Positions 52,169-58,034 of a stretch of 64,000 nucleotides of DNA are shown here, piece by piece. Both the position numbers and the translations under genes were made by a program. The stretch is from NCBI GenBank assembly GCA_947446575.1, contig CANFHC010000008.1:1-64000 (forward strand). Direction: 5' to 3'. Position 1 is the stretch's first letter. Each line of letters begins with the position of its first letter. The notes beneath the pieces are model-generated. The model saw only the letters and a list, made by a program, of their open reading frames with translations, did not search any database and was not told the DNA's origin. This DNA comes from Bacteriovoracaceae bacterium (lineage in GTDB: Bacteria; Bdellovibrionota; Bacteriovoracia; Bacteriovoracales; Bacteriovoracaceae).

Positions 52169-52254
52169 GCGCGGGTGGTGAAATGGCAGACACGCTACCT
52201 TGAGGTGGTAGAGCTCGCAAGGGTGTGCAGGTTCAAGTCCTGTTCCGCGCACCA
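52169..52254 (+). tRNA. tRNA-Leu (anticodon GAG)
   Basis: The 86-base gene folds into a full cloverleaf. The acceptor stem is GCGCGGG with TCCGCGC (one G-T pair). The anticodon stem CTACC/GGTAG carries loop TTGAGGT, giving anticodon GAG. The long variable arm marks a class II tRNA, and the T-loop is TTCAAGT. The 3' CCA is encoded. The serine recombinase gene on the other strand ends inside the tRNA (stop at 52233), so the tRNA 3' end is the probable attachment site and remains intact. Confidence 0.95.
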
Positions 52255-53927
52255 TTTGTAAAGCTATTCGAACCAACATACCCAACATTTTTTAATTTAT
52301 TTTGATCTTTAAAAGAATCGCAGGCATTTGCCTGCGATTTCTCCATATTTGATCCAATAATAACTTCATTCGAATAAAACTCTTTATCCACATTCCAATA
52401 AATCTTAACACTGTCAAGCCCAATTTCTACTCGTCTCACAAACTTCTGTAAAATCTTTCGGCGAACATTAAAATCTGGATTCTCATTCAAGATGAATTTT
52501 GAATATTCCGCAAATTTCTGAAAAGTTTTAAGAGGCACAAGCCTCTGGTCAATGTTCACATCTTTTAGAGAGTTTAATTTTTCATCCACTTCTTTTTTAG
52601 CGCTTTGAATCTTCTCTAATTGTTTAAATAGAGGTGTCGGCGAAATCTCCCGAGGCAAAATCCCAATTCTTTCAGCGAGGGCATCAATCTGTGAGTTTAA
52701 ACCATACTGCTTGGCCTTTAAACGCTCTCTTTCTTTGTGCTCGTCATTTTGCTTATGAATCGCAGTCACTTTTTCTAAAAGGTTCTTAATGAACAATTCA
52801 TTGGTAAGAAGTTTCGTAAATTCATTCCAGACCAGCGGTTCAACTTTCTTAGCTAAAACTCTATGTGGATTGCACTTAAAAGTTTTCTTCGTTAAGCATG
52901 AATCTCTTTTCGTCGCCCAAGAATGCTCGTAATAAGCAACCTTACCACTTCGGCCAGTAGCTGACTTGCCAGGCATATGGTCGCCGCAAGTCATACAAAA
53001 AGAAACTCCTGATAAAATATAGGGATGCCTATTTTCTGAAATTGGCTTGAGCCTAGACCTATTTTTAACTAGCTCCTCATTAGCTCTTTTAAAAGTCACC
53101 TCATCAATAATCGCTTCCCAAACGGCCGGAGATTCTTCAACTTCAACTTTATTTTTGACTGAAAAAACTTTCACTCCAATATAGGCCTTGTTCTTTAAGA
53201 GATGATACAAATTATCAATGGTAAAATGGCCAACACGCATCTTGCTCCCGCCACCTTCCCTCGAAAGTCTCGGTTTATATCCATGGTCATTAAGCCATTT
53301 TGCCGTTCGGGACAAAGTCCCAATCTCTAAGAATTTCTCAAAAGCTTTCTTCACTGTTGGAGCTGTTTCTTCATCAATATCTAAAAAGCCCGGTCGATCT
53401 TGAATCAACTTAAACCCAAGAGGAACGCATCCACCATTATAAAGACCACGCTTTGCTCTTGCTAAAAGGTTAGCTGAAACGCGCTCACTTGTTTGCTTTC
53501 TCTCAAACTGGTTAAAATTTACAATATTAAAAAGCAACATTTCTCCGGCCGACGTTGTTGTATCGAAATCTTCTCGAAGCGACATAAAGCTACATTTGTT
53601 AGTATTTAAAATTTCCCAAATCTGAATGAAGTCACTCATGCTACGAGAGAGACGAGACAGCTCAGTCATCATGACGAGATTGATTCGCTTCATCTTAATG
53701 TCCATGAGCATTTCTTGAAGCTTCGGACGCTTCATATTTTTTGCTGAAATTCCGGCATCAATATAAACGTCAACAATCTCACCAAAACCATATTGGCGAT
53801 TTCTGAAATTAATAGCTTCGCGAAGTCGTTGCTCCTGACTTTTTATGGAACCTTCAGGATTTTCTGCCTGCTCTTCAGAGGAAACTCGAATGTATAAACC
53901 GATCTTGTAATTAGAATTCTTAACCAT
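52233..53927 (-). CDS. Large serine recombinase ending inside tRNA-Leu
   Basis: This 564-residue recombinase integrates or excises DNA. The N-terminal resolvase domain has catalytic Ser16 in YIRVSSEEQ and MMTELSRLSRSM. A recombinase domain follows (GGCVPLGFKL region). Next come a zinc ribbon (CMTCGDHM and two more Cys near residues 345-355) and a coiled coil at about 400-460. The last seven codons (GARNRT and stop) are the reverse complement of the tRNA-Leu 3' end. AGGAG precedes the ATG. It overlaps the preceding small gene by eight bases. Confidence 0.93.
   Translation of the reverse strand: MVKNSNYKIGLYIRVSSEEQAENPEGSIKSQEQRLREAINFRNRQYGFGEIVDVYIDAGISAKNMKRPKLQEMLMDIKMKRINLVMMTELSRLSRSMSDFIQIWEILNTNKCSFMSLREDFDTTTSAGEMLLFNIVNFNQFERKQTSERVSANLLARAKRGLYNGGCVPLGFKLIQDRPGFLDIDEETAPTVKKAFEKFLEIGTLSRTAKWLNDHGYKPRLSREGGGSKMRVGHFTIDNLYHLLKNKAYIGVKVFSVKNKVEVEESPAVWEAIIDEVTFKRANEELVKNRSRLKPISENRHPYILSGVSFCMTCGDHMPGKSATGRSGKVAYYEHSWATKRDSCLTKKTFKCNPHRVLAKKVEPLVWNEFTKLLTNELFIKNLLEKVTAIHKQNDEHKERERLKAKQYGLNSQIDALAERIGILPREISPTPLFKQLEKIQSAKKEVDEKLNSLKDVNIDQRLVPLKTFQKFAEYSKFILNENPDFNVRRKILQKFVRRVEIGLDSVKIYWNVDKEFYSNEVIIGSNMEKSQANACDSFKDQNKLKNVGYVGSNSFTNGARNRT
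52316..52339. repeat. 10-bp hairpin within recombinase 3' end
   Basis: AATCGCAGGC (52316-52325) and GCCTGCGATT (52330-52339) form a perfect stem with an ATTT loop, 62 bases from the tRNA 3' end. ATCGCAGGCA recurs at 58228-58237 near the proposed right end. It could be a recombinase recognition site or an RNA hairpin. Confidence 0.5.
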
Positions 53928-54171
53928 TGATGCTCGCTCCTGTTAATAAGTTATTATTAAAAGAACCCGAGGCGATTTGAATTTTTGTGAGTTGGCAAAT
54001 ATGACTATAAAAAATCTTTGCCACTTCATCAAGCATTTGTTCAAACTCACCCGACTTAATTTCACCGTAAATCAAATTTTCCACGAACTTAAATTCATAT
54101 TTATTTTTTTTATTTTTCGCTAATCCCTCATCATTTTTTTTACTCAACACCTTTTTTATTATTTTTCCCAC
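53920..54171 (-). CDS. Small basic protein of the mobile element
   Basis: This 83-residue protein starts with a Lys-rich segment (KIIKKVLSKKND), then a mixed helical region. GTG 54171 is chosen because AAGGAG lies seven bases upstream; TTG 54177 is too close to that site. It overlaps the recombinase start by eight bases, so it may regulate or assist excision, as small directionality factors do. That role is inferred only from position and size. Confidence 0.55.
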   Translation of the reverse strand: MGKIIKKVLSKKNDEGLAKNKKNKYEFKFVENLIYGEIKSGEFEQMLDEVAKIFYSHICQLTKIQIASGSFNNNLLTGASING

Positions 54172-54270
54172 TACCAAACTCCTTAATTACCGCCCCTAAT
54201 ATCACCTAATTCAAACCAGCAACTTAACTACTACATAACTCCAACCTCATTCACACATCCTTTTACCTAG

Positions 54271-54369
54271 ATCCCAATTCATCATTCGCCATTCCCTGAC
54301 CTCATCCACTAAAACATATGTTGTGGGGGTGAGGTCAGGGAATTAGGCGATGATATATTTAATTGGGAT
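54271..54369. repeat. Large imperfect palindrome, candidate origin or oriT
   Basis: This 99-bp palindrome is centred on AACATATGTT (54313-54322). The inner arms are exact: ATTCCCTGACCTCA (54291-54304) and TGAGGTCAGGGAAT (54330-54343). Outer arms ATCCCAATT (54271-54279) and AATTGGGAT (54361-54369) also match, with CATCATTCGCC/GGCGATGATA between them. It lies directly beyond the stop of the Replic_Relax-like gene. An origin, transfer site or termination structure for the element is likely; a Rho-independent terminator is less likely because there is no T-tract. Confidence 0.75.
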
Positions 54370-55192
54370 GTCCTATCAAAGGTGTGTGATCTAAAGAAGT
54401 TAATTGATTCGCATTTTGTAGCGGCCTCTCAAAATTTGTGACCACCTCTTGGGCGGCCTGATGGGCAGGCATTTTAAAGAATTCTTTTAAAATATATTTT
54501 TCATTTGTTGAATACACCAAGGACTCTCCTTTAAAAGTTAAGATGTCATCTAAAAGAGAAAAATAAATTTTCCCTTCGGTATAACTCGATACGGTACTGT
54601 TCCAATAATCTTTAAGCTTATTTAAAATTGCAAGATTCGGAACGATATACCAAACGCCAAGTAAATCTTTATTCCATTGATACTGACCCAGAATTTTCTT
54701 ATACCTACTTTGACTTTTTAGGTTCAACTCCAATTCAATCGCCATACTATGAGATGAATTATCAATCTTTGTTTCAAAAATTCCATCTGGGATTAATTTA
54801 TTTTTCGCATCCCTTAATGAATATTTTTTATAAATCATTGATCGAATTACATGTTCAGCTACCCATTTTTTTATTACACCTAGCTCCTCTAAAAACATTC
54901 TCAGCTTGATTAATTTAAAATCATGATCAATACTTGCTTGATTCCAGTAACATTTAAAATTCTCCAAGCTCATCTTTTTTGCCCCTTTAGGTGCAATTGC
55001 CCAAAGATTTTCTGTCGTCATTAATAACCCTGCTCTTCTAATAAATCCCTCCTTCTCAAGAATGCGAAGGCGCCGAAGGACTGTTGAATAGTCGACATTG
55101 TTAAAATGTTTTTCGACGATCACTGTCGTTGATAATAATCCATAATTTCCTAAGTTAGATAAAAGGTGCTGGTCTCTATTTGTGAAATACAT
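54359..55192 (-). CDS. Replic_Relax-like protein (replication-relaxation family)
   Basis: This 277-residue protein has an N-terminal winged-helix region (VDYSTVLRRLRILEKEGFIR). DHDFKLIKLRMFLEEL and a later IPDGIFE with AIELELNLKSQSRYKKIL follow, resembling the Replic_Relax family found on plasmids and conjugative elements. The PDG...ELELN pattern recalls a PD-(D/E)xK core. It is thought to act in replication or DNA processing of the element. AAGGAG precedes ATG 55192. Its last codons form part of the palindrome. Confidence 0.72.
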   Translation of the reverse strand: MYFTNRDQHLLSNLGNYGLLSTTVIVEKHFNNVDYSTVLRRLRILEKEGFIRRAGLLMTTENLWAIAPKGAKKMSLENFKCYWNQASIDHDFKLIKLRMFLEELGVIKKWVAEHVIRSMIYKKYSLRDAKNKLIPDGIFETKIDNSSHSMAIELELNLKSQSRYKKILGQYQWNKDLLGVWYIVPNLAILNKLKDYWNSTVSSYTEGKIYFSLLDDILTFKGESLVYSTNEKYILKEFFKMPAHQAAQEVVTNFERPLQNANQLTSLDHTPLIGHPN

Positions 55193-55204
55193 TAATCGCT
55201 CTCC

Positions 55205-55483
55205 TTAAATAAAACTTGCTAACGCTTTCTCGATACCATTTTCTTTTTTTACGACCTCTGCTTTTTTTTTGAATGCTCTTAACTTTGTAATCATTTCCTT
55301 AGCCTCATGTAATTCATCTTTAAGCACGCTGATTTTAAATTCATGACTACGTTCAATTTTTAAAATCTCTTCTTCACAATAACTCTTTGCTTGTTTTCGC
55401 AATGAAGATTTAAATTCTTCTTTTTGGTAGTAGCAGTACAAAGCAAAAATCCCTGAACCCATTAAAATAAATGTTTCAAGCAT
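55205..55483 (-). CDS. Small membrane-anchored coiled-coil protein
   Basis: This 92-residue protein has an N-terminal hydrophobic segment (residues 2-20) followed by a charged helical region with heptad spacing. A perfect AGGAGG lies five bases before ATG 55483. It precedes the Replic_Relax-like gene by 12 bases in the same operon. I recognise no family. Confidence 0.6.
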   Translation of the reverse strand: MLETFILMGSGIFALYCYYQKEEFKSSLRKQAKSYCEEEILKIERSHEFKISVLKDELHEAKEMITKLRAFKKKAEVVKKENGIEKALASFI

Positions 55484-55942
55484 ACTGGCCTCCTAAAAAT
55501 AAAATAAGTTTCCGCAAATCTTGTGATTCGCTAAAATAGCTAATGGAGTTCTGTTTTTGATTGCTAAAGCATTTTCTCTGCTTTAGTATGAGTGGAAAGG
55601 CGTCCAACCTTACACTCTCTAGTTTTAAATTTTTCTCATAATCCTCCTCTTATTTGTCTGAAAAATTGCAGACGAATTCAAAAGAAAATCACAATAAATA
55701 TAAAAAATAACTCCGAGATGCATTGCCCCCGCAAGTCATTTTTGTTTTTTGAATAAATTCAAATAATTAAATTAGATTATTTTAAAAAAATATTTGATGT
55801 TGAATTTGTTTTGATAAAAATGAAAGGAGCCAGAATAAAGGTCCCTTTGTTGTACTTCTTGAATGTAGTTTTTCAAACCGATGACTAGTGCACATACTAA
55901 AAATATCTAAACTTTCTTAATTGTGACACTTCAAAAATAGAA
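55484..55942. other. AT-rich non-coding stretch with several hairpins
   Basis: No convincing gene lies in these 459 bases. Clear structures are CTAAAGCA/TGCTTTAG (55564-55586, 7-base loop) and ATTTGTCTG/CAGACGAAT (55652-55676, one wobble pair). The left side must hold the promoter of the 55483-52233 operon. The concentration of hairpins in a mobile element could mark a non-coding RNA or an origin. Confidence 0.4.
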
Positions 55943-57420: not shown

Positions 57421-57741
57421 ATGGAAATAGTTGTCCTTAAACAAGCAGAAAAAGAACTAAAAGATGGCCCAAAGGAACTAATGGAGGATATTTATTCTCT
57501 GTTTGATGATCTCTCTCAAGGGAAATCCCTTGGGATGCCAATATCAAGGCCTCTCCCTTCGATTGCTCGTGGACTTCATGAATTAAGACTCTCTGGAAAG
57601 GCCGGTGAATTCAGAGTCTTTTATCTGATTAAAGTTGGCGATGCGATTTATATAGTTCATGCCTGCACTAAAAAGAAGCAGGCAATTGATAAGAAGACCA
57701 CAGACCTACTTAAAAATAGAATTAGGAGCATAGACTTATGA
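57421..57741 (+). CDS. RelE/HigB-like toxin (Gp49 family)
   Basis: This 106-residue protein matches the phage-derived Gp49/HigB toxin pattern: LPSIARGLHELRLSGKAGEFRV, FYLIKVGDAIYIVHACTKKKQ and a basic C-terminus. Such toxins cleave mRNA on ribosomes. It comes first in the operon, toxin before antitoxin, as in higBA. Its stop overlaps the antitoxin ATG (ATGA). No ribosome-binding site precedes its ATG. Confidence 0.88.
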   Translation: MEIVVLKQAEKELKDGPKELMEDIYSLFDDLSQGKSLGMPISRPLPSIARGLHELRLSGKAGEFRVFYLIKVGDAIYIVHACTKKKQAIDKKTTDLLKNRIRSIDL

Positions 57742-58034
57742 AAGAAAAAAACAAATCATTTAAATCTTCAAAAGAGTTTGGTGCATTCTTAGGGTTATCT
57801 GACCTTGATATGGAGTTAGTCGGCCAAAAGAAGAAGCTTATTGAAAAATTAAAGAAGGCCAGAAACGATCAAGAAATATCTCAAGCGGAACTTGCAAAGA
57901 TGGTTCAAACTAAGCAACCAGCGATCGCCAGAATGGAATCGGGGCTTGTTAGTGAAATCAGCCTAGATTTTCTCGCAAAAGTAGCCTTAGTTCTCGGTGT
58001 TTCTTTTACTTTCAGAAGTGCTAAAGCGGCGTAA
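57738..58034 (+). CDS. XRE-family antitoxin (HigA-like)
   Basis: This 98-residue protein has an XRE helix-turn-helix (DQEISQAELAKMVQTKQPAI then ARMESGL) followed by a short dimerisation strand (VLGVSFTFR). It should neutralise the upstream toxin and repress their promoter through the 28-bp palindrome. Its last 14 bases overlap the convergent small HTH frame. Confidence 0.88.
   Translation: MKEKNKSFKSSKEFGAFLGLSDLDMELVGQKKKLIEKLKKARNDQEISQAELAKMVQTKQPAIARMESGLVSEISLDFLAKVALVLGVSFTFRSAKAA

Follow-up and report, generated by a model that had tools for sequence, protein, structure and literature searches.

The palindrome and the element around it

The window, the whole 64,000-nucleotide stretch of Bacteriovoracaceae DNA analysed here, carries an imperfect palindrome at 54251-54389, where 139 bp match their own reverse complement in self-comparison. 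Exact outer arms of 9 bp (54271-54279 and 54361-54369) and exact inner arms of 14 bp (54291-54304 and 54330-54343; 17 bp with one mismatch) surround a tip, AACATATGTT, at 54313-54322. These arms and the centre are all present as an initial annotation of the sequence had described them. It had not included the outermost arms TCACACA and TGTGTGA (54251-54257 and 54383-54389), which carry the symmetry beyond the stretch first described, the bulged middle arms (54280-54290 and 54347-54355) or a cytosine-depleted tract beyond the palindrome. Hairpin alignments place a CTGACCTC box in one inner arm (54296-54303, plus strand) and GAGGTCAG, which is CTGACCTC read on the relaxase strand, in the other (54331-54338, plus-strand coordinates). 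The tip differs in length and sequence among hairpin copies.

Since the bulged middle arm connects both arm sets, folding turns the whole palindrome into a single long hairpin (-56 kcal/mol on the plus strand, -52 kcal/mol on the minus strand). The folding z-scores are -7.9 and -6.9, none of 200 shuffles equals the palindrome on either strand, and when the window is tiled into 1065 stretches of 121 nt its folding energy is the lowest; it is therefore not due to chance. A search for intrinsic terminators (stem plus T-tract) at the palindrome found none, in keeping with the lack of a T-tract remarked on earlier. An Rfam scan of the palindrome returned only chance matches to microRNA hairpins, below the gathering score.

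The surrounding element spans at least 3.7 kb in the order tRNA-Leu(gag), serine integrase, 85-aa ORF, cytosine-depleted tract, palindrome (our proposed oriT), relaxase, 92-aa protein and conserved noncoding region. The tRNA-Leu(gag) gene (52169-52254, plus strand) is the integration site and holds the left end of the element; a repeat search with the tRNA end found neither a right end nor a second att copy. The serine integrase gene (52233-53927, minus strand), with Resolvase and Recombinase domains, overlaps the tRNA at its end. The 85-aa ORF (53920-54177, minus strand) lies between the palindrome and the integrase gene. Its first 20 or so codons are unconserved and fall within the cytosine-depleted tract, suggesting that the true start may be further in. 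The tract itself (54099-54249, minus strand), 3' of the hairpin on the relaxase strand, was recognised by its composition: its 151 nt contain 2% C on the gene strand, against 17% in the window. Both an integrase and a relaxase, the combination by which an integrative mobilizable element (IME) is recognised, are thus encoded by the element itself, and no T4SS genes were seen among the ORFs read by eye at about 52-62 kb of the window. The same tRNA-Leu(gag) gene is an integration hotspot in the genus, and differing serine or tyrosine integrases or their remnants abut it in several genomes.

On the other side of the relaxase gene lies that of a 92-aa protein (55205-55483, minus strand) with, by eye, an apparent N-terminal membrane helix and a coiled coil; a coupling protein takes its place in larger elements. 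Small proteins upstream of the relaxase in the window and in loci L072-L089 are mostly unalignable, and by eye they have a membrane helix, a coiled coil and an ALxxFL-like C-terminus. As they occupy the coupling-protein position of the larger elements, a role in docking the relaxosome to a helper is conceivable.

The genome, whose nearest named relatives are Bacteriovoracaceae/Bacteriovorax MAGs, has a second copy of this unit (54249-55872) on contig C28, with 89% identity. The homology starts at the outermost palindrome arm, and the arms are kept, with the tip AACTCGTT replacing AACATATGTT. The conserved noncoding end of the unit (55484-55872) is common to both copies. This region is also 76% identical in DNA over 240 bp to an element of another genome (G008, L018) whose relaxase is only about 40% identical; small plus-strand ORFs lie inside it and a short GC-rich inverted repeat at its end.

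The adjoining gene and the hairpins of Bdellovibrionota

The gene that adjoins the palindrome (54359-55192, minus strand) encodes 277 aa and, judged by profile matches and homolog alignment, is a member of the MOBC (Replic_Relax/MobC) relaxase family, with a predicted N-terminal winged helix and C-terminal PD-(D/E)XK-type site. Its stop codon (54359-54361) overlaps the right outer arm, bearing out the earlier statement that a Replic_Relax-like gene ends within that arm. The NCBIfam MobC_subf profile NF041423 matches residues 19-199 with an E-value of 5e-14, below the model's 200-bit cut-off, and matches 23 of 26 relaxase homologs. Pfam Replic_Relax (PF13814) gives 0.007 for the window protein alone, also below its cut-off; one homolog exceeds the PF13814 gathering threshold and 21 of the 26 match at E-values up to 1. 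When a profile of the 26 homologs was compared using hhalign, the catalytic motifs fell in register with those of CloDF13-type MobC (E-value 8e-15) and of a Paenibacillus MOBC protein (3e-16). The CloDF13 record holds no intact annotated mobC, and intact CloDF13-type relatives were compared instead. Seven residues are invariant in the homologs (H90, D91, E113, D136, E153, E155 and K159). Of these, D136, E153, E155 and K159 (D..ExE..K) form a PD-(D/E)XK pattern that aligns with MobC, and such residues are expected of MOBC relaxases (PMC8152469, PMC5714925); CONJscan uses the name MobC for Replic_Relax (PMC5357655). An AlphaFold model of the relaxase, made with two sequences, reached a pLDDT of 35. 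A PDB sequence search with the relaxase matched mainly winged-helix regulators and no nuclease, and a scan of viral contigs found no relative.

The initial annotation had proposed that the palindrome be sought next to Replic_Relax genes in other genomes, and it was found there. Every relaxase homolog with an E-value below 1e-70 is followed by a hairpin, at the stop codon or a few tens of bases beyond. The hairpin is retained after relaxases that are only 38-50% identical and where the outer arm sequences are wholly different. In some more distant homologs it lies about 70-135 nt further on, and others have no hairpin nearby. R1, a covariance model built only from Bacteriovoracaceae hairpins, has matches in 11 of 14 genus genomes, in 80 of 129 family genomes and in 138 genomes of a phylum sample of 291. 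Within the family, a hairpin is present in 53 of 55 relaxase-positive genomes against 27 of the 74 others (Fisher p 2e-13, an inexact value as the genomes are related).

Gene order is constant: relaxase, hairpin, cytosine-depleted tract, SSB in some cases, then excisionase and integrase. Across 53 hairpin loci, relaxase and hairpin are followed by an optional conserved small protein and SSB, then by xis with a tyrosine integrase or by a serine integrase, and the relaxase, SSB, xis and int genes, where present, are all on one strand. The place upstream of the relaxase is taken either by a coupling protein of TraG or FtsK type or by a small protein that appears to have a membrane helix and a coiled coil; in larger elements TrbI, CagX, TrbC-like and VirB4-like (T4SS) genes lie further upstream. 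These neighbourhoods are mobilization and conjugation modules.

An alignment of 25 hairpins shows how the stem is conserved. Within the TGACYNC box the T, G, C and a further C never vary and the A almost never does, compensatory changes occur in 15 of 19 pairs, and the covariation score is far above those of shuffled and slid controls. In the stems of relatives the sequence is entirely replaced and complementarity kept. At 27 further hairpin loci, found with R1 (L119 among them is a site already represented in the training set), 12 core pairs give 324 cells, 318 of them Watson-Crick, 6 mismatched and none G-U; these sequences were aligned by fitting them to the model, a procedure that favours pairing but would not on its own keep G-U pairs out. 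As any Watson-Crick pair is accepted and G-U is not, we infer that the constraint acts on DNA, as hairpin or cruciform, rather than on RNA.

The cytosine-depleted tract is equally general. At each of the 44 loci measured, C is scarce in the 150 nt that follow the hairpin on the relaxase strand (5.7% against 17.5%, p 8e-9), and the depletion fades across about 300 nt. It plausibly serves to keep an exposed single strand unstructured for SSB or for the transfer machinery.

At about nine loci the hairpin and integration genes, in most cases with the cytosine-depleted tract, occur without a relaxase gene. They look like oriT-only integrative elements that would need a relaxase in trans; decay, or a hairpin tied to the integration genes, may instead account for them. 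In the genome of the window, an orphan hairpin with its tract (G000:C7:146826-146892, L106; 7.8 kb context in L162) is accompanied by an excisionase-like gene and a tyrosine integrase, with no relaxase gene within 1.5 kb upstream, and is a candidate oriT-only hitchhiker. At G009:C1:190864-191123 (L103, L033) the last 57 or so relaxase codons precede an intact hairpin, the tract, an excisionase and an integrase; here the relaxase gene is lost and the hairpin retained.

Related hairpins on plasmids of other phyla

Plasmids of Carboxydocella, Paenibacillus, Peribacillus, Streptomyces, Brachybacterium and CloDF13-like Klebsiella were reached through the relaxase protein, and PLSDB types those of Carboxydocella, Paenibacillus and Klebsiella as MOBC. 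R1, trained without plasmids, gave one match per locus at 7 loci of 4 lineages, each upstream of a MOBC-like gene. E-values were 2e-11 and 1e-10 for Paenibacillus, 9e-7 for Peribacillus, 1e-6 for Streptomyces (three near-identical) and 1e-6 for Carboxydocella; the match on the Brachybacterium plasmid is weak (0.23). The matched hairpins, which are not experimentally mapped oriTs, precede the MOBC gene by hundreds of bases. A cytosine-depleted tract follows the hairpin on the Paenibacillus, Peribacillus and Brachybacterium plasmids and is absent from the Carboxydocella, Klebsiella and Streptomyces plasmids compared.

Among the known systems closest to the window family are Paenibacillus polymyxa pPPKN03045 and pAP2, whose hairpin CTTCCTGACCCCACCCTCACAACG..GGGGTCAGGAAG (R1 E-value 2e-11) is likewise followed by a cytosine-depleted tract. 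The MOBC gene is downstream of the hairpin and the coupling-protein gene comes next. However, the hairpin lies about 630 bp upstream of the relaxase gene and these plasmids have their own conjugation genes.

The CloDF13-type oriT-mobB-mobC module has a relaxase of the same family as the window (profile E-value 8e-15), and a coupling protein adjoins it, an arrangement seen also in the larger elements of Bacteriovoracaceae. An inverted repeat CTGACCACCC / GGGTGGTC(A/G)G stands just upstream of the coupling-protein/mobC operon of Klebsiella/CloDF13 plasmids, small Klebsiella bacteriocin plasmids included. Its similarity was recognised only by eye; R1 does not match Klebsiella/CloDF13-type plasmids. 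They also differ in being plasmids rather than integrated elements, in lacking the cytosine-depleted tract and in having the hairpin upstream of the coupling-protein gene, whereas that of the window follows the relaxase gene. For related elements, published work gives the order as oriT-mobB-mobC and places nic within an inverted repeat (PMC2262945).

Two further systems resemble the window by their description or gene content. The oriT of pAD1/pAM373 is a long inverted repeat next to short direct repeats. Their TraX is a PD-(D/E)XK relaxase, like that of the window, a likeness by description and not by sequence (PMC5714925). Streptococcal IMEs of class 8 (PMC5357655) are integrated, compact and provided with a Replic_Relax/MobC relaxase and a serine integrase, as is the window element, but encode their own VirD4, in place of which the window has the 92-aa protein; the likeness is drawn from the genes.

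The oriT reading and its alternatives

The palindrome is very probably the MOBC-type oriT of a small IME inserted in tRNA-Leu(gag), as judged from sequence comparison. It lies beside the relaxase gene in a mobilization module, and through the R1 plasmid matches its inverted repeat is common to other putative MOBC oriT regions. Three functions had been offered in the initial annotation. That of a transfer nick site is strongly supported by the relaxase-family neighbour, by a hairpin that tracks this family across genera and phyla, and by the T4SS, coupling-protein, SSB and integrase genes around it; that of a termination structure is contradicted. To call the element a new type was too strong, as IMEs with a MOBC relaxase are already described; it is a new, very reduced branch of these.

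In the mechanism that we propose, the serine integrase would excise the element and the MOBC relaxase would bind the palindrome through its winged helix, probably with the arms extruded as cruciform or hairpin. The PD-(D/E)XK site would nick one strand within the inverted repeat. A conjugative helper would supply the coupling protein and T4SS through which the nicked strand, with the unstructured C-poor stretch beside the hairpin, is passed; the strand would then be closed, and the integrase would reinsert it. What we infer in this scheme is that nicking takes place, where exactly and on which strand, that a helper is used and that the element is excised; its basis in the analysis is the relaxase family, the catalytic residue pattern, the constant synteny, the DNA-level conservation of the palindrome, the cytosine-depleted tract and the plasmid hairpins. 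Several observations weigh against the oriT reading: the integration genes kept by the relaxase-less loci, whose integration module could be the tighter partner of the hairpin, some distant relaxase homologs without a nearby hairpin, the CloDF13-type plasmids missed by R1, the scores of the window relaxase below the curated Pfam and NCBIfam cut-offs, and the missing right end.

Among the alternatives, a rolling-circle-like replication origin of the excised element, with the same protein as initiator, is improbable. The Pfam family is named 'replication-relaxation', some relaxases also initiate replication (PMC5714925) and the elements carry no other obvious replication gene, but the neighbourhood is conjugative (coupling protein, TrbI, CagX, VirB4-like), the MOBC family is defined by transfer, and elements without a relaxase keep the hairpin. 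Replication could nevertheless be an additional role, compatible with that of oriT. A part in integration or excision, as attachment or regulatory site for the integrase or excisionase, would explain why the hairpin always lies just upstream of the excisionase/integrase genes, even where the relaxase gene is missing. It is slightly less probable still, given that unrelated serine and tyrosine integrases go with the same hairpin, that the integrase of the window sits against tRNA-Leu, 2 kb from the hairpin, and that on MOBC plasmids the hairpin is close to the relaxase gene without an annotated integrase next to it.

The position at the 3' end of the relaxase gene and the strong RNA folding would suit a transcription terminator or a structured RNA at the end of its transcript. 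We consider this the least probable reading, and highly unlikely: there is no T-tract, RNA stems tolerate the G-U pairs that are absent from the 324 core cells of 27 independent hairpins, TGAC is conserved in both arms (its A nearly invariant), sequence turns over completely under strict Watson-Crick pairing, and on plasmids the MOBC gene begins only hundreds of bases downstream of the hairpin. Two more specific candidates were set aside. An integrase attachment site was rejected as the hairpin is common to elements with serine and with tyrosine integrases, and an integron attC, judged by stem structure and gene context, was dropped because neither the perfect pairing of the inner stem nor the synteny with a relaxase suits it.

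That nic can lie inside an inverted repeat of a MOBC oriT is already known. None of the open papers searched appears to describe the phylum-wide family, the cytosine-depleted tract, the cross-phylum motif or the relaxase-less carriers; a full-text literature search combining Bdellovibrio, integrative and relaxase turned up no work on elements of this kind, and conjugation in Bdellovibrionota is almost undescribed. More tentatively than for the oriT itself, and as a reading less likely than not, we suggest that one oriT architecture, a strictly Watson-Crick palindrome with CTGACYNC boxes plus a C-depleted strand of 150-300 nt, might serve MOBC transfer in several phyla, that either strand could be nicked since both arms have boxes, and that relaxase-less integrative elements of Bdellovibrionota, with this hairpin alone, might hitchhike on the relaxases of others. 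If so, the hairpin would be a main currency of gene exchange among predatory bacteria. About half of the 291 sampled phylum genomes gain a searchable oriT, and relaxase-less hitchhiker elements become findable. A little-studied relaxase family is supplied with a sequence definition of oriT that connects it across phyla, and the hairpin could become a transfer tool for predatory bacteria.

The element at G009:C7 (L023/L079) has an integrase 95% identical to that of the window and a relaxase only about 50% identical, indicating that integration and mobilization modules have swapped partners, the breakpoint lying close to the hairpin. By eye, a RelE-like toxin ORF followed by an HTH ORF forms a possible toxin-antitoxin pair at 57421-58034 of the window. 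G009:C7 has relatives of this pair as well, at a distance of about 6 kb from its relaxase gene, so that the pair may be cargo of the element.
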